Assembly: GCA_014382645.1 (NCBI GenBank)
Contig: JACNJI010000310.1
Span: 1-13,541 of the forward strand
Reading direction: 5' to 3'
DNA length: 13,541 nt
Source of the DNA: Verrucomicrobiota bacterium
GTDB taxonomy: Bacteria > Verrucomicrobiota > Verrucomicrobiia > Opitutales > Seribacteraceae
Made by a program: the position numbers and the translations under genes. Positions 1 to 13,150 of this stretch are shown here, in pieces (position 1 is the first letter of the stretch; each line of letters opens with the position of its first letter). The notes beneath the pieces are model-generated. The model was not told the origin of the DNA. It worked only from the letters and a program-made list of their open reading frames with translations, and made no database searches.

Positions 1-193
1 AAGCCGAGAATACCGGGGCACCGAGACCGGCGAAAGGCCAGAACACTGCGGGGGCGATGAGTCCTGCCCGTACTAACACCCGGGTGAACTGAGCTCGATC
101 GAGTTTCTGAACCACGTCGATCAGGTAGATGATCAGGAGAAAGGGGTTCAGCAGCACGAGCAACAAGGCTGAAGATATGATTAGGTCTGTCAT
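1..193 (-). CDS. MarC-like membrane protein, N-terminal part only
   Basis: An open frame begins with ATG at 193 and runs off the left edge, giving 64 residues (MTDLIISSALLLVLLNPFLL...). It has a hydrophobic first segment containing an NPF motif, then a charged stretch (DVVQKLDRAQFTRVLVRAG) and a second hydrophobic segment. That order resembles the start of the MarC/YhgN family of inner-membrane proteins (hydrophobic helix with a conserved NP, then an arginine-rich loop). MarC proteins are multi-pass membrane proteins of unclear function. It would be the gene of the next minus-strand cassette, starting 11 bases past the attC core at 204-210. The family call rests on pattern only and the C-terminus is outside the window. 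Confidence 0.5.
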   Translation of the reverse strand, partial: MTDLIISSALLLVLLNPFLLIIYLIDVVQKLDRAQFTRVLVRAGLIAPAVFWPFAGLGAPVFSA

Positions 194-203
194 CTGTTCT
201 TAC

Positions 204-277
204 ACCGAACGTTGCCATCACCTACCCGGATCGCAGCACAGCGAGATTTTGGGTTAGCGTGCATGGCTTTGTTGTGC
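204..277 (-). other. attC site following the exported-protein cassette
   Basis: On the minus strand the site runs from GCACAAC (271-277) to GTTCGGT (204-210). The arms just inside the cores pair: GCCATGCAC on one side with GTGATGGC on the other. It lies directly after the stop of the 282-854 gene and just before the next start, which is where an attC belongs in a leftward cassette. The R' core deviates by one base from GTTRRRY. Confidence 0.6.
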
Positions 278-281
278 AATC

Positions 282-854
282 CTATTCCTTCTCGGTGATC
301 TCTATGTCAACGGGGGGGAGGTCAATCTTTCCCTCCCATATTGTTGCTTTGCCCGGTCCGCCCATGAAGTCTGCAGCTCTGCCGGATGAGAATTCTCCAG
401 AGATGCGATACGTACCGGGAGAGAGCTTCCAGATAAGCGTAGTGATGTCCAGATGCGAACCCTTTGCTCCATCTTGACTCTGTATACTTACCCGGAAACC
501 GAGATACCCTCCGCGCGGAATTATACCCCAATGCGGCGATGACAGGATATCTGATCTCGTAAAAATGGTTTTCACCTGCTTGCCCGCGGCGTCAAATACC
601 GTAACGCGGAAGATATGCGGGTTGTGGCACTGGACTGCGAGGGGAATATTGCCGCTATTGGATAACTCCAGAGCAAGCTCGAAGTACTCGTCGGTCGTGA
701 TTGCCGATTTCGCGACACGCAAGCGCCCGGAAAGATTCGACACAGGATTGGACCAGGCGTTCTTCACAGGTGCAAGTGGGCCGGCTGCTGCTAAGACGCC
801 GAACAATAATCCTGCGATCGCTGACGCAAGGGCCGCATTGCGTGTGTTCGTCAT
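282..854 (-). CDS. exported hypothetical protein
   Basis: 190 residues. The start chosen is ATG at 854 because AGAGGA lies just upstream and a signal peptide follows at once (MTNTRNAALASAIAGLLFGVLAAAGP). The frame stays open further upstream, but that stretch is attC sequence of the previous cassette. The mature part (LRVAKSAITTDEYFELALELSNSGNIPLAV..., later PGTYRISGEF) is beta-rich and looks like an immunoglobulin-like periplasmic domain. It shares a rough pattern with the protein at 951-1480: an amphipathic strand, 'LxLALxxSNxxxxPL', then 'GxYxxxxxF'. I do not recognise a named family. It is a single-gene cassette between attC sites at 869-928 and 204-277. Confidence 0.7.
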   Translation of the reverse strand: MTNTRNAALASAIAGLLFGVLAAAGPLAPVKNAWSNPVSNLSGRLRVAKSAITTDEYFELALELSNSGNIPLAVQCHNPHIFRVTVFDAAGKQVKTIFTRSDILSSPHWGIIPRGGYLGFRVSIQSQDGAKGSHLDITTLIWKLSPGTYRISGEFSSGRAADFMGGPGKATIWEGKIDLPPVDIEITEKE

Positions 855-868
855 GATTCCTCTGCTAT

Positions 869-928
869 GCATAACGTCTAGGGTGTGGGATCGAGCTTGC
901 GAGATTCCGCACGACCCTCTGGTTATAT
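869..928 (-). other. attC site (60 bp)
   Basis: On the minus strand the cores are ATATAAC (922-928) and GTTATGC (869-875), the latter within GACGTTATGC. The arms inside, AGAGGGTCGTG and CACACCCT, form an imperfect stem. It starts 22 bases after the stop of the 951 gene and ends 14 bases before the ATG at 854. Confidence 0.75.
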
Positions 929-950
929 TGCGTTTCTCGGCGCTCACGGT

Positions 951-1480
951 TCACTTCATGCGTATGGTTATTGTATTGGACGGCGGAATTGCACTTGTCT
1001 TTCCATCCTTCGTCACGGGCGCCAGGCCTCTGAATTGCACAGTGTAAAGTCCGCGACGGCTGATGTCGTATTGTTCCTCGAGGATGAAGTCATAGAACAA
1101 TGGAAGGCTGTCTCCTGGTTGCAAGATGAGATCCCCTCCAATGGTGGAGCACCATTCAGCTCGATAAGGTACGATGTTACCTTTAGAATCCTTAACCAGC
1201 AATGAATCATTACATCCCGCGGCTTGCGCGTCGTAGTCAATCGGCTTGTCGCTTGTGTTGCTCAATGCAAGTGTCAAGAGAATCAACCGCCCTTTGGCAA
1301 GGCTGTTTTTTCGTTCCCATAATCCAGTTCTCAAACCGCCTTTTTCGCCCCCCACGGGATTGACTCCAACTGCGCAACTTTCGCGTCTTGTAAACGGCTT
1401 CCCGATCCGAAGGGACGGCATCCGAATGCAATTACACAAAGTGTGACCGGCAGGATTAGGCGCATTTGTATTCCAGTCAT
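951..1480 (-). pseudogene. lipoprotein gene with one frameshift
   Basis: A lipoprotein signal peptide opens with ATG at 1480 (or the in-frame ATG at 1465): MTGIQMRLILPVTLCVIAFGC, followed by RPFGSGSRLQDAKVAQLESIPWG. That frame stops at 1331-1333. The rest of the protein lies in another frame (EKGGLRTGLWERKNSLAKGRLILLTLALSNTSDKPIDY..., stop at 951-953). The frames meet at a run of six C (1348-1353; G on the coding strand) next to five T. One additional G would join them into about 176 residues. The second half has the same general pattern as the exported protein at 282-854. The lesion could be cassette decay, a sequencing error at the homopolymer, or slippage. Function unknown. Confidence 0.65.
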
Positions 1481-1481
1481 G

Positions 1482-1488
1482 ATATAAC
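1482..1488 (-). other. attC right core, apparently separated from its partner
   Basis: GTTATAT on the minus strand, two bases before the lipoprotein ATG at 1480, preceded by GGTTTAACACTCTAATT. It is the expected end of an attC. Its likely partner core (GCATAAC, coding-strand sense) is at 2324-2330, with the IS91 fragment between them. The two outer arms share ATAACAA next to the core when one is reverse-complemented. Confidence 0.5.
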
Positions 1489-1834
1489 AATTAGAGTGTT
1501 AAACCTAGTTGCGGATTCATGGACAGAGGTTACCCGCAAAGGGAGGGTTTGAACCAACAAAAAGTGTCGATCGAGGGTGTCGCGGCAACGTCGTATAAAA
1601 CTTTGTTGGACTTGCCGGTGACCTATGGGGAAAAGTAAACGATTGCCGGTGGCTGAACGCTGTCCGGCGCACTCCATTTGAGCGCGGGCGAGCTATTCAA
1701 CGTACATTTCCCCTTGATCAGATGATGTGCAATGGCTGAATTTTCACTTGTCTGCTCCAGCGAGTGCACACCGCTGCATGCACGCGAAAAGGGCGTGTTT
1801 CGAAAGCGAGTATTTTCGTTGAGCAGGCGCATGG
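1489..1834 (-). mobile_element. downstream flank of the IS91 fragment, no gene seen
   Basis: 346 bases between the transposase stop and the split attC core. A 69-codon open frame (1623-1832) is present but has no recognisable family or ribosome site, and I read it as the non-coding end of the element. Near the lipoprotein side are an inverted repeat (CCAACAAAAAG at 1552-1562 against CTTTGTTGG at 1602-1610) and a small stem, TTGCGG/CCGCAA. A GTTC tetramer, a target type known for IS91, lies beside the first of these. The exact end of the element cannot be fixed from sequence alone. Confidence 0.4.
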
Positions 1835-2323
1835 TTACGGAGGATCGTGGTTGCGAATAGGAGGGAGCTCACGCAGCTGTTCCATACGGCCGGTCTTACA
1901 ACGCCTGCACGCACACAGGTCGATGGCGTAGACGCGGGCGATGCGTTCGACGGGTGTTTCGTCGATGAGTTCGGGCGTGGGCTGTGCGATCAGTTGACGG
2001 ATAAGTGGGATGTTGGCTTTACGTACGGCGTTGCCCAAAAAACCGTAGTGGCGGATCCGCGTGAAGCCGTTGGGCAGGACGTGCATAAAGAACCGACGCA
2101 GGAACTCTGCACCATCAAGGCTGAGCGTTGTTTTCCTGGCCGCGTTCTTTGGGTCGCGGCAGGCGAAGGTGACGCCGTGTTCGTCTGCGTGATTGATGCG
2201 GGCGTTGGAGATGCCAACCCGGTGTGTATAGCGTCCGAGGTATTGCAACACCTGCTCGGGGCCGCCAAAGGGGCGCTTGCCGAAAACCACCCAGGGCTTT
2301 TTGTAGAGCGGATCCAGCGACTT
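1835..2323 (-). pseudogene. IS91-family transposase, C-terminal fragment
   Basis: The open frame reads SLDPLYKKPWVVFGKRPFGGPEQVLQYLGRYTHRVGISNARI... and ends at 1835. KPPFGGPEQVLxYLGRYTHRVAISN is the signature of IS91/IS801-type Y2 transposases, which move by rolling-circle transposition. The two catalytic tyrosines of the YLGRY motif are present, as is the downstream GFTRIRHYGFLGNA block and a CxxC-containing tail (CACRRCKTGRMEQLRELPP). The N-terminal zinc region and the HUH metal-binding histidines are missing: the frame fades into GCATAAC, an attC core, at 2324-2330. No start codon with a ribosome site is present, so this is a dead 5'-truncated copy. Confidence 0.85.
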
Positions 2324-2330
2324 GTTATGC
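2324..2330 (-). other. attC left core abutting the IS91 fragment
   Basis: GCATAAC on the minus strand, four bases after the stop of the 2335-2772 lipoprotein gene, followed by AAGTCGCTGG and then at once by transposase coding sequence. It matches the left cores of other attC sites here (9895, 11208). No matching right core is found nearby, only the one at 1482-1488. Confidence 0.5.
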
Positions 2331-2334
2331 TTTC

Positions 2335-2772
2335 CTAGTCGGAAATATGGCGCATGTGAGCGTTGTCAGCATAGTTTGGGCCTCTGACGAACAATCGGTC
2401 GGCCTCCTGATCATACTCGAGCTGACTACTCGATAATAGGAAGTGTGCTCCTTGCTCATCGCGAGTTTTAGTAAGTGTGAGCAGGAAGCTCCCATCATTC
2501 TTTTTCGTGAGCTGCCATGTGCCGTGATCGCGATACTCGAAGTCACTTATCAGAACGAATTTGTAGCTGCCATCAGGGGAAAACTGATACGTCTTTGTTT
2601 CCTGGCTTGGCAGACCCTCTGATATGATAAACCGCCAGCGTCCAACAACTAGGACATTGGGAAGGCTTTGCTTAAGATCACTTGCCTCCCCTGCACGTGG
2701 CGGGACAGCCTTCTCCGTGCAAGAGATCGCAAGTAATCCGGCAAGCAATAGTGGCAGGGTGTGTTTATGCAT
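2335..2772 (-). CDS. lipoprotein of unknown function
   Basis: 145 residues from the ATG at 2772: MHKHTLPLLLAGLLAISC, a lipoprotein signal peptide with a lipobox-like LAISC, then TEKAVPPRAGEASDLKQ. The mature part (VVGRWRFIISEGLPSQETKTYQFSPDGSYKFVLISDFEYRDHGTWQLTKKNDGSFLLTLTKTRD...) has the 'G.W......F..DG.Y......GTW.L......L.L' rhythm of small lipocalin-like or META-like beta barrels, although no family can be named. The ATG at 2772 lies inside the attC right core (GACGTTATGC). The frame remains open to 2787, but that is attC sequence. Confidence 0.75.
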   Translation of the reverse strand: MHKHTLPLLLAGLLAISCTEKAVPPRAGEASDLKQSLPNVLVVGRWRFIISEGLPSQETKTYQFSPDGSYKFVLISDFEYRDHGTWQLTKKNDGSFLLTLTKTRDEQGAHFLLSSSQLEYDQEADRLFVRGPNYADNAHMRHISD

Positions 2773-2830
2773 AACGTCATAGCGCATGCACCCCTACCAG
2801 CGAGGGCGGGTGTTGAACGCGGGGTTAAGG
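2769..2830 (-). other. attC site (62 bp)
   Basis: On the minus strand it runs from CCTTAAC (2824-2830) to GTTATGC (2769-2775, in GACGTTATGC). The arms CGCGTTCAACACCC and GGGGTGCATGCGC pair imperfectly around TCGCTGG. It follows the ATPase remnant and contains the start codon of the next cassette's gene. Confidence 0.7.
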
Positions 2831-2836
2831 TTGTAT

Positions 2837-3037
2837 CTACGAGAACTCATCGAAACAAAACGGCTGGTAGGGGTTGTCGTGGCGCGTCTTGTTCGCTTTC
2901 TTGTTTAGGCACACCGGCCCACTGCCATCCTGTCGTCGAGTCGCTTGGAAGCCCCTTGTAGATAGCAACGGCTTTCTGAACTCCTCACTATCCTCAATGG
3001 ACCGATGGTTTTGAACGCGGACTTTTGTGAGTTTCAT
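2837..3037 (-). pseudogene. N-terminal remnant of an AAA/OLD-type ATPase gene
   Basis: ATG at 3037 follows GGAG at good spacing and encodes MKLTKVRVQNHRSIEDSEEF. This closely resembles the first strand of SMC-like/OLD-type ATPases, where 'MKLxKVRIxNFRSIxDSxEF' precedes the Walker A loop. No Walker A follows. The frame continues for about 45 unrelated residues and stops at 2837. In a neighbouring frame there is a more protein-like run (AIYKGLPSDSTTGWQWAGVP..., ending at 2847), so the reading frame has probably been lost through deletion or fusion. It sits in its own cassette between attC sites at 3157-3232 and 2769-2830. It could instead be a genuine short protein, but I think that less likely. 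Confidence 0.5.
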
Positions 3038-3156
3038 TGAATCTCCATTCTTTGGCGAAATAGTAATTGATGCAACTGAAGTTCGGCGCTTGTCAGATAG
3101 GCGTTTAGAAAGAGGCCTCTCTTGAAAGCAAACTTCACCCTAGTCCCTTCGTCATG

Positions 3157-3232
3157 GCATAACGTCAAAATTCATCTGTAAGGTTCATGAGCGAAGCGAA
3201 TGGTTCTCATCAGGTGAAACTTTTTGTTATAG
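3157..3232 (-). other. attC site (76 bp)
   Basis: One of the clearest sites. On the minus strand it runs from CTATAAC (3226-3232) to GTTATGC (3157-3163, in GACGTTATGC). The arms AAAAGTTTCACCTGATGAG and CTCATGAACC...CAGATGAATTTT pair with a few bulges. It begins 23 bases after the stop of the AT-rich lipoprotein gene. Confidence 0.8.
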
Positions 3233-3255
3233 TTTTTTTAATACCTTTATCTAAA

Positions 3256-3900
3256 CTACTTATTTGTAGAGTTATACGTAACGTCATTGTACAAGTTATT
3301 CAGCATGTCGTTATTGTCTTTAGTATAGGAGTTAAAGATTTTTTCAGATATATTATCCGTCTCGTAAAGCATCTTATAAGCACTATATGAATAAAAGCAT
3401 TTGTCCGTTGTGTCCATGATCATTGCTTTACTTCGGGTAAACTTTTTTCCTTTCAGTTGAAGTAAAACATATAAAACAGTTCGCTCTTTAAGTTTTTTAA
3501 ATTCTTTTTTGATGATTTTAGGATTTTCAGTAGCCATTGTCGGAAGCATCAGCTCAACAAACAACTTTTCTAAATATGCTTGTCGCAGTTGTTCGTTTGC
3601 TAGTTCACCATTAAGTGCCGGCTCATAAAGTTGATAGTCTATTCGAGTTGTGTTGGATCTTGGCCAAAGAGGGTAAAACTGGACATATCCACCGCCCTTT
3701 GCTGTCATTTCGTCATACTCAGAATGGTCCGTTTCGAAATAGTGGTTATTATAGGAAAACATACCGTTAGGAGACGTATACGAACCACGACATGTACCTG
3801 TTTTTAGTGAATCTAAGTCGGGTTGAACCGGGAACGGCGTGGCAGTTTTACAGCCACTAAATAATGTTAATAATATCACTACAATTATTGCTTTGATCAT
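3256..3900 (-). CDS. AT-rich lipoprotein of unknown function
   Basis: 214 residues starting with MIKAIIVVILLTLFSGC, a lipoprotein signal peptide whose lipobox is LFSGC. The mature region (CRGSYTSPNGMFSYNNHYFETDHSEYDEMTAKGGGYVQFYPLWPRSNTTRIDYQLYEP...) resembles secreted proteins with a short beta-rich N-terminal part. It is followed by a lysine-rich alpha/beta section (ENPKIIKKEFKKLKERTVLYVLLQLKGKKF) that could handle an acyl or protease-like fold, but no catalytic motif can be named. The base composition is markedly more AT-rich than the neighbours, consistent with separate origin. It is a single-gene cassette between attC sites at 3967-4054 and 3157-3232. Confidence 0.8.
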   Translation of the reverse strand: MIKAIIVVILLTLFSGCKTATPFPVQPDLDSLKTGTCRGSYTSPNGMFSYNNHYFETDHSEYDEMTAKGGGYVQFYPLWPRSNTTRIDYQLYEPALNGELANEQLRQAYLEKLFVELMLPTMATENPKIIKKEFKKLKERTVLYVLLQLKGKKFTRSKAMIMDTTDKCFYSYSAYKMLYETDNISEKIFNSYTKDNNDMLNNLYNDVTYNSTNK

Positions 3901-3966
3901 TTATTTTAAATTTTTCTTTTTTTGAATTGTGAATTGCTTTTTCGTGAGTTTTTATTTTCCTCTCAA

Positions 3967-4054
3967 CTATAACGTAGAGGCTACTCAGCTCTGAAGCGCG
4001 GAGCGCGAAAGGGCTTGAGTATACTGACTGGATCTACGCTTCATTTGGTTGAGT
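3967..4054 (-). other. attC site (88 bp)
   Basis: On the minus strand it runs from ACTCAAC (4048-4054, which reads GTTGAGT on the plus strand, a perfect GTTRRRY) to GTTATAG (3967-3973). Arms AGCGTAGATCC...ACTCAAGC and GCTGAGTAGCCTCTACG pair. It separates the 63-residue protein from the AT-rich lipoprotein. Confidence 0.7.
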
Positions 4055-4104
4055 GGTTGTGGTTGTGGTTGGTCTTTGGTCCATTCGTCTTCTTTTCATT
4101 CTTT

Positions 4105-4296
4105 CTAGGAAAATCCAATCGTTCCCCCAAGGCCAAAGATCACACCAATTACGTATCCGATCAGATAACCGGAAAATCCTGAATCTATCGTGCTTCCAAG
4201 CATGATTGCTCCGAGAATTCCAAGTGCCTGCGAGATGATGAGTAAAATGGTGAGATTCGCGCGGATTCGTTCGAAGACTGTTTTTCTCTTTTCCAT
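4105..4296 (-). CDS. small two-helix membrane protein
   Basis: 63 residues: a basic start (MEKRKTVFERIRANL), a hydrophobic segment (TILLIISQALGILGAIML), a short glycine-rich linker, and a second hydrophobic segment (SGYLIGYVIGVIFGLGGTIGFS). It is probably inserted in the inner membrane with two passes. Short two-helix proteins are common in cassette arrays. It is the only open frame between two attC sites, which supports it as the gene of that cassette. I do not recognise a family. The upstream ribosome site is weak. Confidence 0.6.
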   Translation of the reverse strand: MEKRKTVFERIRANLTILLIISQALGILGAIMLGSTIDSGFSGYLIGYVIGVIFGLGGTIGFS

Positions 4297-4307
4297 TTTA
4301 TTCTGTA

Positions 4308-4452
4308 GATCACCGAAGTCACCGGATTTGAAGAGGGAAGGGATGAGAATTCCGGTGCACTGTTTTGTTATTTATAAGAAGACGAAACTGAAATCATTCA
4401 GAATAATCGTCTTTATTTAGATTAAGAATTCAATTCCGCTCGTTTGTTATGC
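4308..4452 (-). other. attC site, long form (about 145 bp)
   Basis: On the minus strand the left core is GCATAAC (4446-4452), followed by AAACGAG. Ten bases CGGAATTGAA pair with TTCAAATCCG near 4322-4331 with one mismatch, leaving a long loop similar to large chromosomal attC sites. An inner hairpin, CACCGGA/TCCGGTG, also lies in this stretch. The right core is degenerate (GTGATCT around 4310), so that end is uncertain. Confidence 0.5.
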
Positions 4453-4453
4453 C

Positions 4454-4891
4454 TCACTTGAGTTTCCAAGTCACAGTCTTGAGTCCGTAGTAAACGCTGT
4501 CTTTCTCAATGTTGGTACCTGGAGGCATCGGCATACCCTGCGGAACGCCATCGGTGCCTTGCTTGTCCTAGTCCCAGATGAACATTGGCCATCGCATTTT
4601 TACCACCTTGCCAGTGACAACAATGACTTGGCCGACTTGGTCTAAGGGAATTGCCACCTTGTCGCCTAATAGAAAGATGGTTTCGTCGCCAACTTTCACA
4701 GCGGGATCGTTTTCCTTGATGTGAGGCGAACTCGAGGCAATACCTTCGAATTGATGTCGCGAGCCAACCAATCGCTCGAGTGTGGGGTTGCGAACATTAA
4801 CCGGGGCCGCTTCGGCTGCGCCAGAACCAGAAGAACTATCCGATGAACAGGAGGCTAGGAACAACACAATAACTGTGGACAGTATTCTCAT
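4454..4891 (-). pseudogene. OB-fold-like lipoprotein gene with an in-frame TAG
   Basis: From ATG at 4891 the product starts MRILSTVIVLFLASC, a textbook lipoprotein signal (ATG at 4909, inside the attC core, is an alternative). The mature part has the pattern of short OB-fold lipoproteins: LERLVGSRHQFEGIASSS..., then TIFLLGDKVAIPLDQVGQVIVVTGKVVKM. A TAG at 4568-4570 stops the frame after MRWPMFIWD. In the same frame coding-like sequence continues (DKQGTDGVPQGMPMPPGTNIEKDSVYYGLKTVTWKLK) to a TGA at 4454-4456, two bases from the attC core. A Pro/Gly-rich segment followed by 'YY.L....W.L' is a natural end for such a domain, so the full gene appears to be about 145 codons with one amber mutation. 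Confidence 0.65.
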
Positions 4892-4905
4892 AGGGATCTC
4901 GGTAG

Positions 4906-5030
4906 TCATAACGTCAAAGTGAGGCACGGCTGACCGGGAGCGTGCATCCGATGCGGGACAGGGGTTGCAATTACGGTGCATCTTTCGAGTCGGGGCGTGT
5001 CAGCCGTTGCTCTCCATGCACTTGTTTGAC
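4906..5030 (-). other. attC site (125 bp) overlapping the SIR2 stop
   Basis: On the minus strand it runs from GTCAAAC (5024-5030) to GTTATGA (4906-4912, in GACGTTATG). The arms contain matching ACGGCTGAC on one side and GTCAGCCGT on the other, plus further imperfect pairing. The stop codon of the SIR2-like gene (5000-5002) lies within the site. Confidence 0.75.
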
Positions 5031-6058: not shown

Positions 6059-6068
6059 TACTTCTTTG

Positions 6069-6144
6069 GTCCAACGCTAAGCTGTGGGACTGGTTTGCGA
6101 GTGCTAGCGAGCAATACCAGTTCTACAAGAGCGTCTTGTTGGCT
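6069..6144 (-). other. attC site (76 bp)
   Basis: On the minus strand it runs from AGCCAAC (6138-6144) to GTTGGAC (6069-6075), the latter a perfect GTTRRRY. Arms GACGCTCTTGTAGAACTGG and CCAGTCCCACAGCTTAGC pair well. Directly follows the stop of the AbiU2-like gene and lies 11 bases before the SIR2 start. Confidence 0.85.
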
Positions 6145-6949: not shown

Positions 6950-7000
6950 ATTGAACGCCTGTGCGCTCTTATTTGGTGGCCTGCCGGCCAAGCGTTCAAT
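6950..7000. other. attC-like palindrome of unclear orientation
   Basis: TTGAACGC and GCGTTCAA form a perfect 8-base outer stem 51 bases across (ATTGAAC at 6950-6956, GTTCAAT at 6994-7000), with an inner TTGG...CCAA/GGCC...GGCC structure. Both ends are near-cores of an attC. Because the outer arms are symmetrical, sequence alone does not say which strand is the active one. Confidence 0.45.
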
Positions 7001-7126
7001 TGTCGAATATCCGTTTTGGTAAGAATTCGACACCGACCTGATAAATCCATGCAGACAGACGCTCGTAAATCTCACTATTGTTAGCTAACGTTCAACCAAA
7101 TCAATTTTTAGTCACAAGAAAATCAA

Positions 7127-8233
7127 ATGCACACGTCGACCCCAAAGGTTTTATGCTTGGCAGTCCTAAGCTTGCTTGCTGTCGGTTCCTTGCTGGCCAA
7201 GCCCGATCCGTCTGATTCGGCTCCCTGGACTTTCGTCAGCATACCCGACTTCCTGAACTTCGACATCGAGTACCCGCAGAAAGGATGGGAGGGCGCCCTC
7301 GGGTTCATCGTGGGTTCCATGAAAAAGGAAGATCCGGCCTTCGCCCTGGTGGCGGGCGACCTCGTCATGGGGCACTGGGGAACCAAGAAGGAGGAGGTCG
7401 ATCAGTGGGCGAAGAAGTATTACCCAGGTTGGGTTCAACGCTTCAAGGACCACGGACTCAAGGTCTACGCTGCCCTCGGTGACCATGAGGTCGCCGACAA
7501 TCCCTGGCGGGGAGCGGTGGCCACCGCCGTGCCTTTTTACAAGGATGCCTTTCGGCGACATCTCAAGATGCCCTTGAACGGTCCCGACCACATGAAGGGG
7601 ACTGCCTTTTATTGGCTCCACAAGAATGCCTTGTTCGTCTCGGTCGACGTGTTCGAGAAGGGCAAGAGCAACCAAGGCGAGATTGCCGCCGGGGTGACCG
7701 GCAAGCAACTCGAGTGGTTTGAAAGGGTACTCAGAGAGCACGGACCCAAGGTGAACCATATCGTGGTTATGGGGCACACTCCCATTCTTCGCCCAGTCAG
7801 GACCTACAGTTCATCAGGGATGCTGACCGTCAAGGGACGTGACTCGGACTTTTGGAAGCTTATGGCCAAACATGGCGTCGACCTTTATCTTTGCGGGGAG
7901 GTGCATGCCGTGACCTGCACCCGGCGCGACGGTATCCAGCAAATCGCCCACGGTGGTCTGATCGGGCGCACGACCAAGCCCAACTACCTGCTTGTGACCG
8001 TGCATGAGGATAAGCTCGAGCTGGACCTCAAGGAGATCGACCTGATCAACGGCAAGGGACGGCTCTGGCAAAAAAACAAGAGCAAGGGGCCATGGGACAC
8101 GATAACCATTACCCGGGAACGCAAGAAGCGGGGTTTTACCTCGATCGGGAAGGTCTCCATAAACAAAGAGACGGACGCCAAGAAGTTCGAGGCCGCCACC
8201 GGCTTTTTCACCGAGAAAGACAACCCAAAATAG
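7127..8233 (+). CDS. secreted calcineurin-like metallophosphatase
   Basis: 368 residues with an N-terminal signal peptide (MHTSTPKVLCLAVLSLLAVGSLLA). Metallophosphoesterase motifs follow in order: AGDLV (76-80), LGDHE (117-121), VVMGHTP (212-218), and CGEVHA (255-260, the GxVH of the last motif). The first motif, normally DxH, reads PDFLNFD and lacks the histidine, so metal binding at that site may be altered. Such enzymes hydrolyse phosphomonoesters or diesters in the periplasm; the substrate is unknown. It is more GC-rich than its neighbours. It is the first rightward gene after the switch region, and I see no convincing attC after it, so it may not be a cassette. Its last 11 codons match a segment at 13059-13089. 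Confidence 0.85.
   Translation: MHTSTPKVLCLAVLSLLAVGSLLAKPDPSDSAPWTFVSIPDFLNFDIEYPQKGWEGALGFIVGSMKKEDPAFALVAGDLVMGHWGTKKEEVDQWAKKYYPGWVQRFKDHGLKVYAALGDHEVADNPWRGAVATAVPFYKDAFRRHLKMPLNGPDHMKGTAFYWLHKNALFVSVDVFEKGKSNQGEIAAGVTGKQLEWFERVLREHGPKVNHIVVMGHTPILRPVRTYSSSGMLTVKGRDSDFWKLMAKHGVDLYLCGEVHAVTCTRRDGIQQIAHGGLIGRTTKPNYLLVTVHEDKLELDLKEIDLINGKGRLWQKNKSKGPWDTITITRERKKRGFTSIGKVSINKETDAKKFEAATGFFTEKDNPK
8196..8226 (+). repeat. repeat X, copy 1
   Basis: 31 bases coding the end of the metallophosphatase (ATGFFTEKDNP). A copy with 28 of 31 identical bases is at 13059-13089. Here it is contiguous with repeat Y. Confidence 0.7.
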
Positions 8234-8257
8234 TACCTGCAAGCCTTGCAAGTGGAT
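8225..8257 (+). repeat. repeat Y, copy 1
   Basis: 33 bases spanning the metallophosphatase stop and containing an imperfect palindrome (ACCTGCAA-GCC-TTGCAAGT). A second copy, with two substitutions and one missing base, is at 12430-12461. Confidence 0.75.
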
Positions 8258-8537
8258 GCTCATGACTTCAAGCCATCTTTACGGGTTTAATATTCGACAT
8301 AAATCCGTCCTGGAGGATCCTGAGTTGGTGCCAAGTCCTTCATGAAACACCAACTTGAAATAATAAAATTTGCATTTCAAAAGGGGCTTTTTGAAAATTC
8401 AATTGCTTATCACTAAAATTAAATTTCCCCCTTTTAACTACTATTGAATTATTCTTTTTTACATGTAAATAATGGATACTATAAGTTCTGCAAAATGAAA
8501 TGAACGAATCCAAAGCATTGAATGTCTAATCAACTTG
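8234..8537. other. intergenic region with two hairpins
   Basis: About 300 bases without a gene. Besides the end of repeat Y, it holds a 9-pair hairpin (ACGGGTTTA 8281-8289 with TAAATCCGT 8300-8308, one G.T pair) and an 8-pair perfect inverted repeat (AGTTGGTG 8323-8330 with CACCAACT 8348-8355, loop of 17). Neither is followed by a T run, so they are not typical terminators. The second half becomes strongly AT-rich up to the methyltransferase start. No clear attC cores were found. Confidence 0.5.
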
Positions 8538-9155
8538 ATGACTGAAAAATCGAATTCTACAATTGAAAGGCTTCGCAAGCCAATTTCACGACTAATCGCA
8601 TTCATGCTGATTCTTATGGCTCTGCTTACAGTGCCAATAAATTTTGAAGACGGAGTTCATGAAGCTTTGGAGATTTTCGGCTATTTTTTACTGCTTACGG
8701 CAGGACTTGGTAGAATTTGGTGCTCTATTTACATTGCTGGCAGGAAGGATAAAATATTATGCACAGATGGTCCGTATTCAATTTGCAGGAATCCACTTTA
8801 CCTTTTTTCCTTTATAGGGGTCATTGGTGCATTTTTGGCATTTCAAAGTATTTTGCTCACAGTCATGGCATCTGCTATCTACTTATTGTATTATCGATTC
8901 GTTATTAAGAGTGAAGAAATAAGGCTGCTCGATATTTTTAAAGTTTCGTTTTCAGAATATATCAGCACTACCCCCCGATTTTTCCCAAGATTTTCTTCAT
9001 ATCAGAGTAGTGTAGCCGAAAGAATTACCTCAACAAAAGTTATCGAAAGGGGCTTGAGAGAAGCCGTTTGGTTTTTTATAGCTATAGCATTGATTGACAC
9101 AATTGAAGTCATTCACCGCCAAGGTTTCATGATATTGGCGACACTGCCATTCTAA
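8538..9155 (+). CDS. isoprenylcysteine/phospholipid methyltransferase-like membrane protein
   Basis: 205 residues from ATG at 8538 (a TTG at 8535 is also in frame). Several hydrophobic segments (about 16-35, 45-68, 87-125, 175-200) surround the family signature: DGPYSICRNPLYLFSFIGVIGAFLAF (77-102), then RFVIKSEEIRLLDIF...FSEYISTTPRFFP. 'GPY..vRNPxYl' followed by 'E...L...Fg.eY......RfiP' is the SAM- and substrate-binding core of the ICMT/PEMT superfamily, which methylates lipids or small hydrophobic substrates in the membrane. Bacterial members are mostly uncharacterised. AT-rich, unlike the metallophosphatase before it. Followed at once by a clear attC. No good ribosome site is seen. Confidence 0.8.
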   Translation: MTEKSNSTIERLRKPISRLIAFMLILMALLTVPINFEDGVHEALEIFGYFLLLTAGLGRIWCSIYIAGRKDKILCTDGPYSICRNPLYLFSFIGVIGAFLAFQSILLTVMASAIYLLYYRFVIKSEEIRLLDIFKVSFSEYISTTPRFFPRFSSYQSSVAERITSTKVIERGLREAVWFFIAIALIDTIEVIHRQGFMILATLPF

Positions 9156-9157
9156 AG

Positions 9158-9238
9158 GCAGAACAAGGCAGTGGAGGACAACTCCGTTACGCGCTCCGCA
9201 CTCCACGCTCCACTCCATGCCTACCTTTGACGTTATGT
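9158..9238 (+). other. attC site (81 bp), rightward
   Basis: Runs from GCAGAAC (9158-9164) to GTTATGT (9232-9238, in GACGTTATG). Arms AAGGCAGTGGAG and CTCCACTCCATGCCTACCTT pair. The right core is identical to those on the left half but on the opposite strand, which is the best evidence that the array changes direction. Confidence 0.8.
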
Positions 9239-9272
9239 AAAAGTAAAAAATGAATTGTCTTATTTATGTTAT

Positions 9273-9290
9273 TGTGTAAGTTCCTACACA
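9273..9290 (+). promoter_or_regulatory. probable VapB operator
   Basis: TGTGTA(agttcc)TACACA is a perfect 6+6 inverted repeat whose last base is the A of the antitoxin start codon. VapB-VapC complexes autoregulate by binding such palindromes. A possible -35 (TTGTCT, 9255-9260) is upstream. Assignment is by position only. Confidence 0.5.
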
Positions 9291-9490
9291 TGCCTACCAA
9301 TTTAGCAATAGACGATAATTTACTTGTAAAAGCCTTGAAGGTCAGTGGTCTTAAAACGAAAAAAGATACTGTAAATCAAGCCCTTAAGGAATTTGTTCTG
9401 AAAAGAGAGCAGAAGAAGATTTTAGACTTTTTTGGAGTTGTTGATTATTATGATGATTATGACCCGAAGGCAGATCGAAGGAAATCGTAA
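9290..9490 (+). CDS. vapB: VapB-type antitoxin
   Basis: 66 residues (MPTNLAIDDNLLVKALKVSGLKTKKDTVNQALKEFVLKREQKKILDFFGVVDYYDDYDPKADRRKS). The N-terminal 'NLAIDDxLLxxAxxxSGxxTKKxxVNxALxEfV' is the ribbon-helix-helix of VapB_antitoxin proteins. The acidic, aromatic tail (DYYDDYD) is the part that wraps the toxin. Start at 9290 is chosen because the domain begins there and the operator abuts it; an upstream TTG at 9266 would read through the operator. The stop TAA and the ATG of vapC share one base. Confidence 0.9.
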   Translation: MPTNLAIDDNLLVKALKVSGLKTKKDTVNQALKEFVLKREQKKILDFFGVVDYYDDYDPKADRRKS

Positions 9491-9888
9491 TGGTTATTGT
9501 AGATTCTGATGTGTGGTCAGAGGTATTTCGATCTAGGGCAGGGAAAGCGTCCAAGTATTTCGATAAGTTAGCGAAGTTAATTGAGGATGAAGACGTTGTT
9601 CTTTTGGGAGCGATACGCCAAGAGGTTTTATCAGGTATAAAGTCTAAAGAACAATTTGATTCCCTAAAAAAGGTTTTGAGATCATTTCCAGATGTTTCGT
9701 TACCTGAAGCAATTTATGAGATGGCAGCATCATTTTATAATATTTGCCGAAGTAATGGAGTTCCAGGATCGTATGCCGATTTCTTGATATGTGCTTGTAG
9801 TGTGTTTTATAAATTAGAGATTTTATCGAATGATAGAGAATATATTCATTATTCAAAACATATTCCTATCAAGGTTTGTAAGCTATAG
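9490..9888 (+). CDS. vapC: VapC-type PIN-domain toxin
   Basis: 132 residues with all acidic residues of a PIN ribonuclease: D5 (MVIVDSDVW), E45 (IRQEVLSG), D97 (SYADFLICA), D115 (LSNDREY). VapC enzymes cut tRNA or rRNA and are held inactive by VapB. The 1-base overlap with vapB (TAATG) indicates translational coupling. The module forms a single cassette with attC sites at 9158-9238 and 9895-10025; toxin-antitoxin cassettes are common in large arrays and are thought to stabilise them. Confidence 0.92.
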   Translation: MVIVDSDVWSEVFRSRAGKASKYFDKLAKLIEDEDVVLLGAIRQEVLSGIKSKEQFDSLKKVLRSFPDVSLPEAIYEMAASFYNICRSNGVPGSYADFLICACSVFYKLEILSNDREYIHYSKHIPIKVCKL

Positions 9889-9894
9889 GAATCA

Positions 9895-10025
9895 GCATAA
9901 CAATTGGATGGAGGGTAATCCCCAACACGGTTTTAATTATATTGAAGTATTGGTTCCCTATTACAGTTTTTGAAGATTTGAAGCGATGGAGTAAAGTTGG
10001 GGATACCTCATCCTGTGCGTCAGGT
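9895..10025 (+). other. attC site, long form (131 bp)
   Basis: Left core GCATAAC (9895-9901). Arms GGATGGAGGGTAATCCCCAAC and GTTGGGGATACCTCATCC pair almost completely, with a loop of about 70 bases. The right core is degenerate (GTCAGGT, 10019-10025, one base from GTTRRRY). Confidence 0.75.
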
Positions 10026-10036
10026 ACGAAAAAAAG

Positions 10037-10064
10037 TTTACAATGTGCTACATTTTGCTACATA
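10037..10064 (+). promoter_or_regulatory. promoter with tandem operator repeats
   Basis: TTTACA (10037-10042) and TACATA (10059-10064) are 16 bases apart. Between and over the -10 are two exact TGCTACAT repeats (10046-10053, 10056-10063) exactly ten bases apart, one helical turn. This fits an autoregulated toxin-antitoxin promoter 11 bases before the antitoxin start. Confidence 0.55.
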
Positions 10065-10074
10065 TCTTTATTGC

Positions 10075-10293
10075 ATGAGCACCGTAATAAGAATTTCCGA
10101 TCACTTGGCAAAAGAAGCGAAGACCAGATCAAAGGTAGAGCACCGCTCGATGACTTCACAATTGGAGTATTGGGCGACCATCGGCAAAACCGCAGAAGAA
10201 AACCCTGATTTACCGTTCAGTTTCATCAAGGAAACACTTCTGGCGATCGAGGAAATGAAGGAATGCCCAAAGGAGGAATATACCTTTGGGTGA
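10075..10293 (+). CDS. ParD-like antitoxin
   Basis: 72 residues: MSTVIRISDHLAKEAKTRSKVEHRSMTSQLEYWATIGKTAEENPDLPFSFIKETLLAIEEMKECPKEEYTFG. 'RISDxLxxEAkxxAkvehRSxTxQIEYWAxIGkxaeENPDLp' is the ParD-like antitoxin family, which carries a ribbon-helix-helix and is usually followed by a RelE/ParE toxin, as here. An upstream frame is open from 9997, but it runs across the attC, so the ATG at 10075 is the right start. No clear ribosome site precedes it; with the promoter so near, the mRNA may be nearly leaderless. Confidence 0.85.
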   Translation: MSTVIRISDHLAKEAKTRSKVEHRSMTSQLEYWATIGKTAEENPDLPFSFIKETLLAIEEMKECPKEEYTFG

Positions 10294-10573
10294 AAGGAAG
10301 ATTTTTGTCTCATCTGCCTTCGGGCGAAAAATTAAAAAGCTGAAGAAGCGGGAAAAGAAGGAACTTGATGACGCGGTTCTAGATCTTTCGAACGATCCAA
10401 GTGTTGCAGAAGAGAAAGTTGGCGATCTAGCAGGAGTTTCGGTCTATAAGTTTAAGATCAATAAACAGTCGGTTCTATTGCCTTATGCATACGACGAGAA
10501 TGAAATTAACCTCCTGACATTTGGATGCCATGAGAACTTCTATCGGAATCTGAAAAAATACAAAAAAGCCTAA
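10286..10573 (+). CDS. RelE/ParE-superfamily toxin
   Basis: 95 residues starting at a TTG (10286) that overlaps the antitoxin by 8 bases. AGGAGG lies about nine bases upstream inside the antitoxin gene, a strong ribosome site that fixes this start. The sequence (FVSSAFGRKIKKLKKREKKELDDAVLDLSNDPSVAEEKVGDLAGVSVYKFKINKQSVLLPYAYDENEINLLTFGCHENFYRNLKKY) has the RelE fold pattern: two basic helices, 'LaGv.vYKFki..q..LL.Y.yd...i.Ll..G.HENFYR.LK'. The C-terminal HENFYRDLK is typical of the toxins that partner ParD-like antitoxins. These act on ribosome-bound mRNA or on gyrase. The stop overlaps the following attC core. Confidence 0.88.
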   Translation: MGERKIFVSSAFGRKIKKLKKREKKELDDAVLDLSNDPSVAEEKVGDLAGVSVYKFKINKQSVLLPYAYDENEINLLTFGCHENFYRNLKKYKKA

Positions 10574-10622
10574 CCAGACGGAGAGAGCAAAACCGTTGGC
10601 GCACTCATCCTCCACATTATGC
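10568..10622 (+). other. attC site (55 bp), short form
   Basis: Left core GCCTAAC (10568-10574) is a canonical RYYYAAC and contains the toxin stop codon. Arms GGAGAGAGC and GCACTCATCCTCC pair; the right core is degenerate (ATTATGC, 10616-10622). Confidence 0.65.
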
Positions 10623-10683
10623 GAGGGAAAAGAATCAAACTATAAGAAGAAGAAAGAAACACACGCTCTCAATCCTTGGGACG

Positions 10684-11187
10684 ATGCTGATTTTTGTGCT
10701 ACTGTCCGGACTGCTCGTCGGATGTATGACATACCGAAAATAACAGTGGTTCGGCGGTATGACCACGATTCAACTGGAGGATGGAACGAAGGTTGGCTTG
10801 TGGTTTGACCCTGCCGACCGTCGACCGGACATACCTCTATTGGGTCGTTATTCGGTCAGTACACCACCCTATGCGCTACAGATTTATTTTCCGGATTTCG
10901 ACCCCGCTTGGGAATCCGCTGAGATTGATGAAGTGATCGTAGCATACAATGACGGCACCACGGATAAGCGAACGGACGGTGGCGTCGTGTGGCGGATAAG
11001 AAGTAAAGAGATGACGCTATATAGAGGACCACTTAAAGACCTCGTGACGCGTCACGAAAGCGGCAACATCACTGTAACGGGTAGTATTTCGGCGAAAACT
11101 GGCAAGAAAACTGGCTTTTCCTTCTCGCACAAATTTGAGGCAGAGCCTAAGGATTCTGGGATCGCACCTTACTGGTCTGGTGGGTGA
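10684..11187 (+). pseudogene. lipoprotein gene with an in-frame TAA
   Basis: ATG at 10684 opens a lipoprotein signal peptide, MLIFVLLSGLLVGC, followed by MTYRK and a TAA at 10741-10743. The same frame then continues QWFGGMTTIQLEDGTKVGLWFDPADRRPDIPLLGRYSVSTPPYALQIYFPDFDPAWESAEIDEVIVAYNDGTTDKRTDG... to 11187. A mature lipoprotein domain without any export signal of its own makes little sense, so I read this as one gene of 168 codons with a nonsense mutation. An alternative is reinitiation at ATG 10759, giving a 142-residue cytoplasmic product. The domain is beta-rich with no recognised family. It lies between attC sites at 10568-10622 and 11208-11264. Confidence 0.6.
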
Positions 11188-11207
11188 AAAGGCAAGAAGG
11201 GTAGCCC

Positions 11208-11264
11208 GCATAACGAGCAGGTGCTGCCGGACGGCTAATCGCCGCCGCAGACCTATGTGCTCAC
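11208..11264 (+). other. attC site (about 57 bp)
   Basis: Left core GCATAAC (11208-11214). Arms GAGCAGGTGCTGCCGG and CCGCCGCAGACCTATGTGCTC pair with a bulge. The right core is poorly conserved (near CACGGAA), so the right end is approximate. Confidence 0.6.
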
Positions 11265-11271
11265 GGAAAAA

Positions 11272-11306
11272 TTGACATTATGGCGTTTTAGCGTTTTGGT
11301 GTTTTA
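11272..11306 (+). promoter_or_regulatory. promoter element and triple 8-base repeat
   Basis: A consensus TTGACA (-35) is at 11272-11277. From 11283 to 11306 three 8-base units follow without gaps (GCGTTTTA, GCGTTTTG, GTGTTTTA), the last ending at the base before the antitoxin ATG. They look like tandem operator sites for the ribbon-helix-helix antitoxin. A -10 is not obvious, and there is no ribosome site. Confidence 0.5.
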
Positions 11307-11528
11307 ATGAAAAGAGCAACCGTGTATTTTGAAGAAGATCTCCACAAGGCCCTAAAAATGAAGTCTGCGGAGATTTCGACGCCTGTCTCCGACCTCGTGA
11401 ATGATGCGGTGAGGTCGGCGCTATTTGAAGATGCAGAAGATCTCGAAGCATTTAAAGAAAGAGAGAAAGAGCCGGTGATCGATTTTGAGTCTTTCGTCAC
11501 GTCTCTGAAAGAAGATGGAAAGCTTTAG
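11307..11528 (+). CDS. ribbon-helix-helix (CopG/RelB-like) antitoxin
   Basis: 73 residues: MKRATVYFEEDLHKALKMKSAEISTPVSDLVNDAVRSALFEDAEDLEAFKEREKEPVIDFESFVTSLKEDGKL. 'KRATVYFExDLHKALKxKAAExxxSxSdLVNxAVRxaL' is the N-terminal DNA-binding ribbon-helix-helix of CopG-type antitoxins; the acidic remainder (EDAEDLEAF...EREKEP) binds the toxin. It overlaps the following RelE-type gene by 14 bases, so the two are co-translated. Confidence 0.88.
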   Translation: MKRATVYFEEDLHKALKMKSAEISTPVSDLVNDAVRSALFEDAEDLEAFKEREKEPVIDFESFVTSLKEDGKL

Positions 11529-11775
11529 AATCGTAATCAAGAAGTCTGCGGCGAAGGAAATCGAAAGAATCGAAAAGAAAGATAGAATTCGCATCATCGA
11601 GAAGATCCGATGTTTGGCGAGTGATCCACGTCAATTCGGCAGCAAGAAACTTTCGGGCCAAGAAAAATACCGGATTCGCCAAGGGAATTACAGGATCTTG
11701 TATCAGGTTATTGATGACGAATTAATCATCAACGTCGTCAAGGTCGGGCATCGGCGAGACATCTACGATAATTAA
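11515..11775 (+). CDS. relE: RelE-family toxin
   Basis: 86 residues: MESFRIVIKKSAAKEIERIEKKDRIRIIEKIRCLASDPRQFGSKKLSGQEKYRIRQGNYRILYQVIDDELIINVVKVGHRRDIYDN. It has the complete RelE pattern: 'K.A.KEl..i.k.dr.rI..kI..La.dPr..g.kkL.g...yRiR.G.YRilY.i.d..l.i.VvkvgHRrdvY'. RelE toxins cleave mRNA in the ribosomal A site. The basic residues of the C-terminal half (R53, R55, R60 and HRRDIY) are present. It ends with TAA inside the left core of the next attC. Confidence 0.92.
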   Translation: MESFRIVIKKSAAKEIERIEKKDRIRIIEKIRCLASDPRQFGSKKLSGQEKYRIRQGNYRILYQVIDDELIINVVKVGHRRDIYDN

Positions 11776-11830
11776 TGTGGCCCAGTCTGAGGCGGCAACG
11801 GCTAACGTCCGCCACGTTTCTGCGTTGAAT
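11771..11830 (+). other. attC site (60 bp)
   Basis: Right core GTTGAAT (11824-11830) is a perfect GTTRRRY; left core ATTAATG (11771-11777) is degenerate. Arms GAGGCGG and CCGCCAC pair around CAACGGCTAACGT. It includes the stop of the RelE gene. Confidence 0.65.
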
Positions 11831-11839
11831 GAAAAGAAT

Positions 11840-11879
11840 TTGACAGGGCGGGATATGCGTACATTATCCTGTACATATG
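11840..11879 (+). promoter_or_regulatory. yefM-yoeB promoter and operator
   Basis: TTGACA at 11840-11845 and CATTAT/ATTATC at 11862-11868 make a good sigma-70 type promoter. Over the -10 and up to the start lie an inverted repeat (ATATGCGTAC 11853-11862 with GTACATAT 11871-11878) and the hexamer TGTACA (11870-11875). TGTACA cores in a palindrome are the known recognition feature of YefM operators in enteric bacteria. The module therefore seems to carry its own autoregulated promoter. Confidence 0.65.
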
Positions 11880-12134
11880 AATGCAATCACTTACACTGCA
11901 GCAAGAGAAAATCTAGCATCCACGATGGATCAGGTTTGTCTCGATCGAGATCCTGTGATCATAACACGCAAGCGCGAGCAATCGGTCGTCATGATCTCGC
12001 TGGAAGACTACGAAGCACTTGAGGAAACCGCATACCTTCTACGCAGTCCTGCAAACGCGAAACGATTGATTGCCTCAATTGAAGCAGCCGAACAAGGAAA
12101 TGTAGTGGAAAAGGAAATCGAGCTCATCGAATGA
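11877..12134 (+). CDS. yefM: YefM-family (Phd/YefM) antitoxin
   Basis: 85 residues: MNAITYTAARENLASTMDQVCLDRDPVIITRKREQSVVMISLEDYEALEETAYLLRSPANAKRLIASIEAAEQGNVVEKEIELIE. The Phd/YefM fold is clear: 'yTaARenLastmdqVc.drdPviITRk...sVVmiSLeDYealeETayLLrSPaNAkRLi.Si' matches YefM throughout. The ATG at 11877 sits at the edge of the operator. The last codons overlap the yoeB start (ATGA). Confidence 0.95.
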   Translation: MNAITYTAARENLASTMDQVCLDRDPVIITRKREQSVVMISLEDYEALEETAYLLRSPANAKRLIASIEAAEQGNVVEKEIELIE

Positions 12135-12388
12135 ATTTCACATTCACTCCACAAGCTTGGGAGGATTACCAATTTTGGCAAAAGACTGATAAGAAAATAC
12201 TGAAAAGGATTCATTTACTGATTCAGGATATCCTGCGATCACCACAGGAAGGCATCGGCAAACCAGAGTCATTGAAACATAACCTAAGCGGATACTGGTC
12301 ACGACGTATCACGGAAGAACACAGAATCGTTTATAAGCAATTCGAGCACGGGATCACATTCGTCCAGATGCGATACCACTATAAATAA
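12131..12388 (+). CDS. yoeB: YoeB toxin
   Basis: 85 residues, the usual YoeB length (84-85). Catalytic residues fall at the same positions as in the Escherichia coli protein: E46 (GKPE), R65 (EEHRIVY), H83 and Y84 (RYHYK). The family signature 'GkPEpLKhnLsGyWSRRItdEHRiVY' is complete. YoeB cleaves mRNA at the ribosomal A site and is neutralised by YefM. It overlaps yefM by four bases. A recognisable attC after it is not certain. Confidence 0.95.
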   Translation: MNFTFTPQAWEDYQFWQKTDKKILKRIHLLIQDILRSPQEGIGKPESLKHNLSGYWSRRITEEHRIVYKQFEHGITFVQMRYHYK

Positions 12389-12429
12389 TTGAGTCGAAGC
12401 AAGCGGAGTTTGCAACGGCTAGCATCGCG

Positions 12430-12461
12430 CCAAATAGTACTTGTAAGCCTTGCAAGTGGAT
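12430..12461 (+). repeat. repeat Y, copy 2
   Basis: 32 bases nearly identical to 8225-8257, with palindrome ACTTGTAA-GCC-TTGCAAGT. It lies between yoeB and the next gene. It is followed by a weak hairpin (TCCC...TTT/AAAGGGA, 12460-12482), possibly a terminator for yefM-yoeB. Confidence 0.75.
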
Positions 12462-12507
12462 CCCTCTTTCTTTAATAAAGGGACAAGTTACCCAACCTGT
12501 GGTCGAA

Positions 12508-13005
12508 ATGGAACCTAGATGGAAATATATTCTAATCACTGCGGCGTTTGTCAGCGTAGCGTTAGCCGTGCTTTACCCCATTCGCGGGTTTTTTCCGCCA
12601 TTCTACTACGAACAGTACAACGCCTTTAAAGACAGGCTGGAGACGATCGAAGACTTGCAGATTCGAGATTCTTGGCAACACAAGGATATCCGTCTGGAAG
12701 ACTGCGGATTCGATGTTGAAATCGATGACCGAAACGCCTCTTTGACGTTCACAGATCACCAAGACTGGGTTGCCCTGTTTTCCAAAATCGACGGAATCCG
12801 CATCTCAATGAAAGATCATCAACGTTTGGTTACTTGCAAAGAAATGAAATCCGCCGGCATGGAAATCGATGGCCTCCGGGACGTCCTTGAGAATCTTGGC
12901 TCAGTCATTGAATTTTGTTCGAATCAAAAGAACCCCATCCTTGTGCCCGATGCGGAATACGATTACTGGGATCACTTGAACTATGCTCAAATCCAATTCC
13001 AGTAA
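12508..13005 (+). CDS. membrane-anchored hypothetical protein
   Basis: 165 residues from ATG at 12508 (an in-frame GTG at 12499 would add three). One N-terminal membrane segment (YILITAAFVSVALAVLYPI, about 6-24) is followed by a soluble domain: FKDRLETIEDLQIRDSWQHKDIRLEDCGFDVEIDDRNASLTFTDHQDWVALFSKIDGIRISMKDHQRLVTCKEMKSAGMEIDGLRDVLENLGSVIEFCSNQKN. Three cysteines are scattered through it. It probably faces the periplasm. No family is recognised and no motif suggests catalysis. It is flanked by repeat Y upstream and repeat X downstream. No strong ribosome site is seen. Confidence 0.65.
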   Translation: MEPRWKYILITAAFVSVALAVLYPIRGFFPPFYYEQYNAFKDRLETIEDLQIRDSWQHKDIRLEDCGFDVEIDDRNASLTFTDHQDWVALFSKIDGIRISMKDHQRLVTCKEMKSAGMEIDGLRDVLENLGSVIEFCSNQKNPILVPDAEYDYWDHLNYAQIQFQ

Positions 13006-13012
13006 TGTCGCC

Positions 13013-13042
13013 TTCGGTAGATGCGAAGGATCCTCAGCCCAT
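13013..13042 (+). terminator. possible hairpin after the hypothetical gene
   Basis: CCTTCG and CGAAGG form a 6-base stem about ten bases after the stop at 13005. There is no T run, so it is at best a weak terminator. Confidence 0.3.
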
Positions 13043-13058
13043 TGCGCCGAAACGGCCC

Positions 13059-13089
13059 CCACCGGCTTCTTCATCGGGAAAGACAACCC
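13059..13089 (+). repeat. repeat X, copy 2
   Basis: 28 of 31 bases match the metallophosphatase 3' end (8196-8226). In the corresponding frame it still reads PTGFFIGKDNPR and then stops, so it looks like the severed tail of a second metallophosphatase-like gene. No upstream part of such a gene is present here. Confidence 0.65.
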
Positions 13090-13131
13090 TAGGTAGAAAT
13101 TGTCCGCCATTGCCAGGATAAGATAGAGTGC

Positions 13132-13150
13132 AAAAAGGAGTCGAGCTCCT
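13132..13150 (-). terminator. terminator of the M24 peptidase gene
   Basis: On the minus strand AGGAG-CTCGA-CTCCT is followed by TTTTT, with the hairpin starting at the peptidase stop codon. The stem is only five pairs but the T run is good. Confidence 0.55.

Follow-up and report, generated by a model that had tools for sequence, protein, structure and literature searches.

Introduction

Arrays of integron cassettes grow from attI, and the R'' box of a cassette's attC site is expected to complement the first core of that same cassette. We analysed a stretch of DNA from a Verrucomicrobiota bacterium (the window, which is the entire 13,541-base contig C439), where two opposed CALIN-like arrays (CALIN, cluster of attC sites lacking an integron integrase) lie on different strands, one on each side of the metallophosphoesterase gene mpe. 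The arrangement is unusual, and the underlying element is of a known kind. attC arrays without an integrase have been found, and their proposed origins include off-target insertion by IntI elsewhere and loss of intI (PMC8618304; this and the other papers are cited for the passages that concern these points). In Xanthomonas CALINs occupy conserved positions away from intI (PMC12444791). The window differs from the described CALINs in having two opposed clusters around one conserved gene.

In the same family, the sedentary chromosomal integrons of the genomes G021 and G023 share with the window the attC family and several toxin-antitoxin cassettes; they have intI, attI and a one-way array, whereas the window runs in two directions and no intI was found in it. 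Cassettes inserted at attG or secondary sites were reportedly described by Loot in 2024; the window is similar in lying away from known attI and in being joined at G|TT cores, and differs in that its chromosomal sequence stops short of the core. Both cassette orientations were present on one chromosome after partial re-inversion of the experimentally inverted Vibrio cholerae superintegron, where a single laboratory-inverted array was partly turned back by two IS3 copies (PMC11023631), whereas in the window the arms are separated by a chromosomal gene and no such pair of insertion sequences was found. In a literature search, mostly outside the subscription journals, divergent arrays flanking a single gene were not found described, which is weak evidence of absence.

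Two attC arrays on opposite strands

Since an Rfam scan of the window gave no match at E<=1, we built two attC covariance models, the E-values of which are rough. Model R1 (eight window sites and six from relatives) is partly circular because window sites are among its training sites. Model R2 was built from 14 attC sites, all outside the window (alignment A3), leaving out L070, the attC of the G023 mpe and a near-copy of L034:14973, and was run on the window with filters off. R2 gave 12 matches at E<=5, seven of them at E<0.01, and all seven lie on the expected strand, with five minus-strand sites left of 6145 (204-6144) and two plus-strand sites right of 9157 (9158-9238 and 9895-10025). The change of direction claimed in the preliminary description is thus borne out, for the cassette genes as for the attC sites, with covariance-model sites in each half. 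The remaining five matches, with E from 0.57 to 4.6, do not rise above noise, and two lie on the plus strand in the left half. R1 added the minus-strand sites 3157-3232 and 3967-4054 and gave seven left-arm sites at E<1e-4.

Both arms, with five and two attC sites at E<0.01, reach the IntegronFinder 2.0 threshold of at least two attC sites per cluster for a CALIN (PMC9024848). The R2 strands do not run in one direction from attI as in a complete integron. R2 was also run on 27 other loci, 25 of relatives and two of the same genome, at E<=0.5 or E<=0.1. At least two matches were detected in six loci, all of relatives (L034, 4; L039, 3; L084, 2; L086, 4; L088, 2; L089, 3), many of these sites belonging to the R2 training set. 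All six loci are one-way, and among the loci run both directions occur in the window alone, which agrees with its earlier description as unlike an ordinary one-way array.

Features of the left arm:
1-6809, minus strand: left arm, cassette array truncated where the contig ends, R2 giving five attC sites at E<0.01
204-277, minus strand: attC, R2 E=6.4e-4
869-928, minus strand: attC, R2 E=2.2e-3
2769-2897, minus strand: attC, R2 E=2.9e-13
3157-3232, minus strand: attC-like site, R1 E=5.3e-7 (R1 trained on it), R2 E=0.57
3967-4054, minus strand: attC-like site, R1 E=9.4e-5 (R1 trained on it), absent from the R2 list
4905-5030, minus strand: attC, R2 E=3.2e-22
6069-6144, minus strand: attC of the AbiU2-like cassette, R2 E=4.5e-5
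6144-6797, minus strand: first left-arm cassette gene, HEPN AbiU2-like (PF18734, 61.1 bits)
6803-6809, minus strand: first left-arm core GTTGGCT, exactly complementary to the R'' box of its attC (6138-6144), picked by eye

Features of the right arm:
8485-12431, plus strand: right arm, partly decayed cassette array with two attC sites at E<0.01 with R2, plus remnants
8485-8491, plus strand: first right-arm core GTTCTGC, exactly complementary to the R'' box of its attC (9158-9164), picked by eye
8535-9155, plus strand: first right-arm cassette gene, PEMT/ICMT-like methyltransferase (PF04191, PF04140)
9158-9238, plus strand: attC, R2 E=5.7e-5
9895-10025, plus strand: attC with right core decayed to GTC, R2 E=4.1e-8, in neither training set
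11775-11830, plus strand: attC-like remnant, suggestive (1/200 shuffles as good)
12385-12431, plus strand: half-attC remnant, distal, where the right arm ends (3/200 shuffles as good, tested as 12385-12432)

The R'' box and the first core were compared in the ten cassettes with identifiable boxes and agreed at 32 of 40 variable positions (permuted mean 18.4, p=0.0001). This count is biased by eye-picked boxes, which occur in five of the pairs; in the other five, where the models supplied both boxes, 13 of 20 positions agreed vs 8.8 permuted (p=0.048). In the first cassettes of both arms, AbiU2-like and methyltransferase, the match is exact, both first cores being eye-picked, and in the cassette of 2837-3037 the agreement is 0/4. 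The nine listed left cores are all GTT, and a tenth, before the gene 4105-4296, was not recognised. The six right cores are GTT at 8485, 9232 and 11824, GTC at 10019 and ATT at 10616 and 11277, those at 8485, 10616, 11277 and 11824 being placed by eye. The sequence GACGTTATG, described earlier as common to the right cores of both sides, was found at four left cores (869, 2769, 3157, 4906) and at one right core (9232), but two further right cores are ACATTATG.

Right-hand sites from 9158 to 11830 had also been described, and they do not form a clear series. Of these, 9158-9238 and 9895-10025 stand and 11775-11830 is suggestive, but 10560-10630 and 11200-11290 are not distinguishable from shuffles (31/200 and 33/200 shuffles as good). 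The right half might instead consist of common chromosomal toxin-antitoxin genes among which attC-like repeats arose by chance, in line with the lack of significance of these two regions, with just two right-arm sites being significant under R2, and with single-strand folds of both that do not surpass shuffles (z 0.06 each). Both sites, however, have E-values of 4.1e-8 and 5.7e-5 under a model trained on neither, the first right cassette has an exactly matching core and R'' box, and genes and sites alternate in the right half as in cassettes, and we consider chance repeats very improbable. Two decayed right sites had fold z values of -1.0 and -2.8, and the presumed bottom-strand folds of four left sites -1.2 to -2.6. 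A mechanical scan for GTT/AAC hairpins had no power: at the set thresholds neither the window nor any of three shuffles gave a pair, and at a lower one many pairs were listed. The left regions 2290-2340, 1475-1620 and 4290-4460 were rejected as attC remnants, with 18/200, 47/200 and 63/200 shuffles as good in comparison with the R2 training sites.

Toxin-antitoxin genes crowd the right arm (9290-12388), with VapB and a PIN toxin, a ParD-like/ParE-like pair, Phd/YoeB, and a ParE toxin with a small partner scoring below the Pfam cut-offs. Among the scanned left-arm proteins no toxin-antitoxin family match was detected, the AbiU2-like HEPN protein excepted, and a PADLOC scan of ten proteins gave no match. 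A fragment of a Y2 transposase (1835-2330, minus strand; PF04986, profile positions 94-179 of 183) adjoins a left-arm GCATAACAAG box, as if it had cut an attC. Two open reading frames (ORFs) lie in one frame at 5000-6058 on the minus strand with a TGA between them, neither with a Pfam or PADLOC match; their GAGAS motif presumably points to a SIR2-like protein.

A chromosomal block between the arms

The sequence between the arms is chromosomal. Window positions 6962-8364 are 87% identical to the genome G002 and collinear with it, and 6960-8240 are 83% identical to G004. In G002 a cytochrome-c-domain gene is followed by a polysaccharide lyase, a 236-aa gene and mpe, and R2 finds no match there; the order in G004 is the same, the lyase being matched by its last 28 residues only.

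Features of the chromosomal block and its edges:
6810-6938, no strand: unassigned 129 nt between the left arm and the chromosome, no match in the other four genomes of the genus
6939-7022, plus strand: 3' tail (last 28 residues) of the conserved 236-aa chromosomal gene, tblastn 82%, E=8.2e-8
7127-8233, plus strand: metallophosphoesterase gene mpe (PF00149), chromosomal, collinear in G002 and G004
8365-8484, plus strand: unassigned 120 nt before the right arm, the last ~30 nt attI-like
12432-12461, plus strand: mpe 3' end repeated over 30 bp at the distal edge of the right arm, 93% to 8228-8257
12499-13005, plus strand: ORF168, chromosomal, mpe neighbour in G020 and AM-382-K23

The region 6798-7126, presented in the preliminary description as a gene-free centre, contains the 3' terminus of a chromosomal gene that is conserved (6939-7022) and is the ragged edge of the chromosomal block, since the 236-aa tail and mpe are collinear in G002 and G004. 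The arms do not diverge from an attI-like centre or array origin at this place, being separated by a 1.4-kb chromosomal block with a conserved gene, and for the same reason the region is no simple head-to-head fusion point or inversion hinge; an inversion of one arm could have occurred at another place. The arrays had been described as spanning 1-13150; they lie inside this span, and the sequence from 12432 on is chromosomal. The idea that the DNA of 6806-6962 is a decayed part of the 236-aa gene found no support (p 0.45 and 0.49), despite the protein match of the last 28 residues from 6939. The window mpe was rejected as a decayed cassette, with no R2 match past its stop.

The genes of the locus without the array in G002 identify the left arm as an insertion or a replacement. 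The right arm is an insertion between mpe and ORF168, since the two are neighbours in G020 (~60 bp, the next match after mpe) and in AM-382-K23 (~1 kb downstream). Positions 13058-13108 contain a further remnant, 82% identical to the end of mpe in G002, and G020 likewise has an extra mpe 3' end (L031 12179-12292). These stray 3' ends downstream of mpe give the impression of lost tandem copies, or of a 3' end that has served repeatedly for insertion.

The source genome (3.79 Mb, 88% complete) is a 557-contig assembly, and contigs break at repeats such as attC arrays, so two one-way arrays from different places might have been joined by an assembly or binning artefact. The inter-arm block, however, is collinear with two other genomes, ORF168 adjoins mpe in two others, and contig C72 of the same genome independently supports the place and the orientation of the left arm. 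C72 carries the cytochrome-c-domain gene on the minus strand and, ~850 bp beyond its 3' end, a plus-strand attC (R2 E=1.5e-15). In the orientation of the locus this is the cytochrome-c-domain gene (plus) followed by cassettes (minus), as the left arm requires, and this orientation, together with the gene expected beyond the left arm, argues against a chimera. The contig evidence therefore does not indicate the chimera that the preliminary description had allowed for, and we hold an artefact to be very unlikely. In the remnant test against the R2 training sites, C72 505-600 was matched by 0/200 shuffles.

The closest named relatives are uncultured Opitutales/Verrucomicrobiota, with an mpe 91% identical in CAJQSI010000090.1 ('uncultured Opitutales bacterium').

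Array heads and a resident integron

A G|TT core is present at each junction of chromosome and cassette (6803, GTTGGCT; 8485, GTTCTGC), and the host sequence does not continue directly to the core, the homology ending 129 and 120 nt short. Among the other 41 genomes of the family, the right 120-nt piece has one match only, in G002, ending at 8364. The 30 bases before the first right core resemble the G021 attI with an anchored score of 11.4, reached by 3 of 7652 distinct GTT sites, namely the right head itself and two near-copies of the G021 attI (L066, L064); the background excluded intI-bearing loci, the mpe contig of G007 and loci duplicating the window. The unanchored test gave p=0.004. 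It is suggestive, from sequence likeness, that the right arm begins at an attI-like sequence. The match may be due to chance, since a G007 site ~80 bp after mpe, outside the background, scores 13.8 and an L102 site 9.4, and both read like gene starts. For the same reason the idea of an attI-like site conserved behind mpe was given little weight.

These heads raise the possibility of a resident integron remnant at mpe. The right arm would be an old array at its own attI (8365-8485) with intI deleted, and the left arm would be part of that integron or of a second one, reversed by integrase (attI x attI-like) or by homologous recombination. The likeness of the right head to the G021 attI and the similar head lengths between chromosome and core on the two sides are in line with this, as is TAACTTG before the left core, which is also found in the presumed G056 attI (rank 8/7652, a comparison picked after the likeness was noticed). 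Inversions made by integrase between inverted secondary sites have been reported (PMC10127599). On the other side, mpe, the 236-aa tail and ORF168 all keep the ancestral orientation, so that a single inversion including mpe cannot explain the locus; besides the possible chance match to attI, no intI remnant was found in the genome itself. We consider a resident integron possible but rather doubtful.

The intI gene of a complete integron was not detected. No integrase over the cut-off was found in the genome itself, though the contig ends within the left arm and the genome is 88% complete. Among 57 genomes searched, ten have a TIGR02249 match over the cut-off, none of the ten in this genus. In G021 and G007, intI lies near genes read as lpd and purC. 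In the genome under study, the aroA-cmk-plsC-purC contig (names read from translations) has no R2 match at E<=0.5, and the search for the lpd locus was uninformative, with a best match 38% identical. In G001, of the same genus, an attC remnant lies beside plsC (L058 5062-5185), near genes that flank intI in other genera; it has E=0.037 with R1, which does not contain it, and belongs to the R2 training set.

mpe as a gene cassette in relatives

The mpe gene is a gene cassette in G021 (L034 13812-15031) and in G023 (L035 8536-9687), with an attC past its stop, and in G021 another attC also precedes it. The G021 mpe attC is in both training sets, and that of G023 is its near-copy. Among 30 mpe loci in named genomes, 28 have no R2 match, and the two that match correspond to G021 and G023. 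In a tree of 30 mpe rows, from which the partial mpe of L120 was left out, the two cassette copies are identical and placed among copies without attC, beside two Akkermansiaceae/Verrucomicrobiales rows (support 83/83). On the contig L109, whose label is Marinovum (Pseudomonadota), mpe groups with Roseibacillus within the verrucomicrobial clade, and the contig is possibly mis-binned. In G007 (L033 924-2948), the polysaccharide lyase and mpe form a single open frame of 674 aa.

Discussion

One attC family in both arms, opposed orientations, a collinear block between the arms and array-free loci in relatives were detected here. We suggest that two separate integrase-less, CALIN-like arrays flank mpe and point away from it, probably as a result of integrase insertion at two distinct sites on opposite strands (rough probability 0.58). 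An integron integrase acting in trans, or since lost, would have inserted cassettes at the two sites, and growth of either arm would have started at the end that faces mpe. The integrase as the inserting agent and the arms as separate events are probable rather than observed. The most likely route, by an integrase in trans or one that has since disappeared, agrees with the CALIN origins proposed in PMC8618304.

The right arm appears older because three of its six recognised cores are no longer GTT, vs nine GTT among the nine listed left cores.

Several results weigh against two separate insertions. The age difference of the arms depends mostly on eye-placed cores, and an inversion of one arm would look identical. 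A clean single-step attG insertion lacks support because 129 and 120 nt separate the chromosomal homology from the cores. The left head is not attI-like, with a score of only 1.6 against the G021 attI (rank 2438/7652). The TIGR02249 search of the genome itself (88% complete) gave seven weak matches, none over the cut-off; the frames of three of them (L001-L003) look like XerC/XerD.

It is also conceivable, though we think it unlikely, that the mpe locus is a two-sided landing pad, in which outward heads on both strands seed two divergent integrase-free arrays, mpe itself being picked up as a cassette in relatives. If true, the locus would show how chromosomal genes and cassette arrays swap places.

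Which attC strand is exposed, and hence how readily cassettes are lost, depends on how an array is oriented with respect to replication (PMC11023631). Opposed arms with one attC family within 14 kb would provide a natural control for this effect, being in the same genome and region. With mpe, which has no attC in the window and is a true cassette in G021 and G023, there is also a specific gene in which to study how genes become cassettes.

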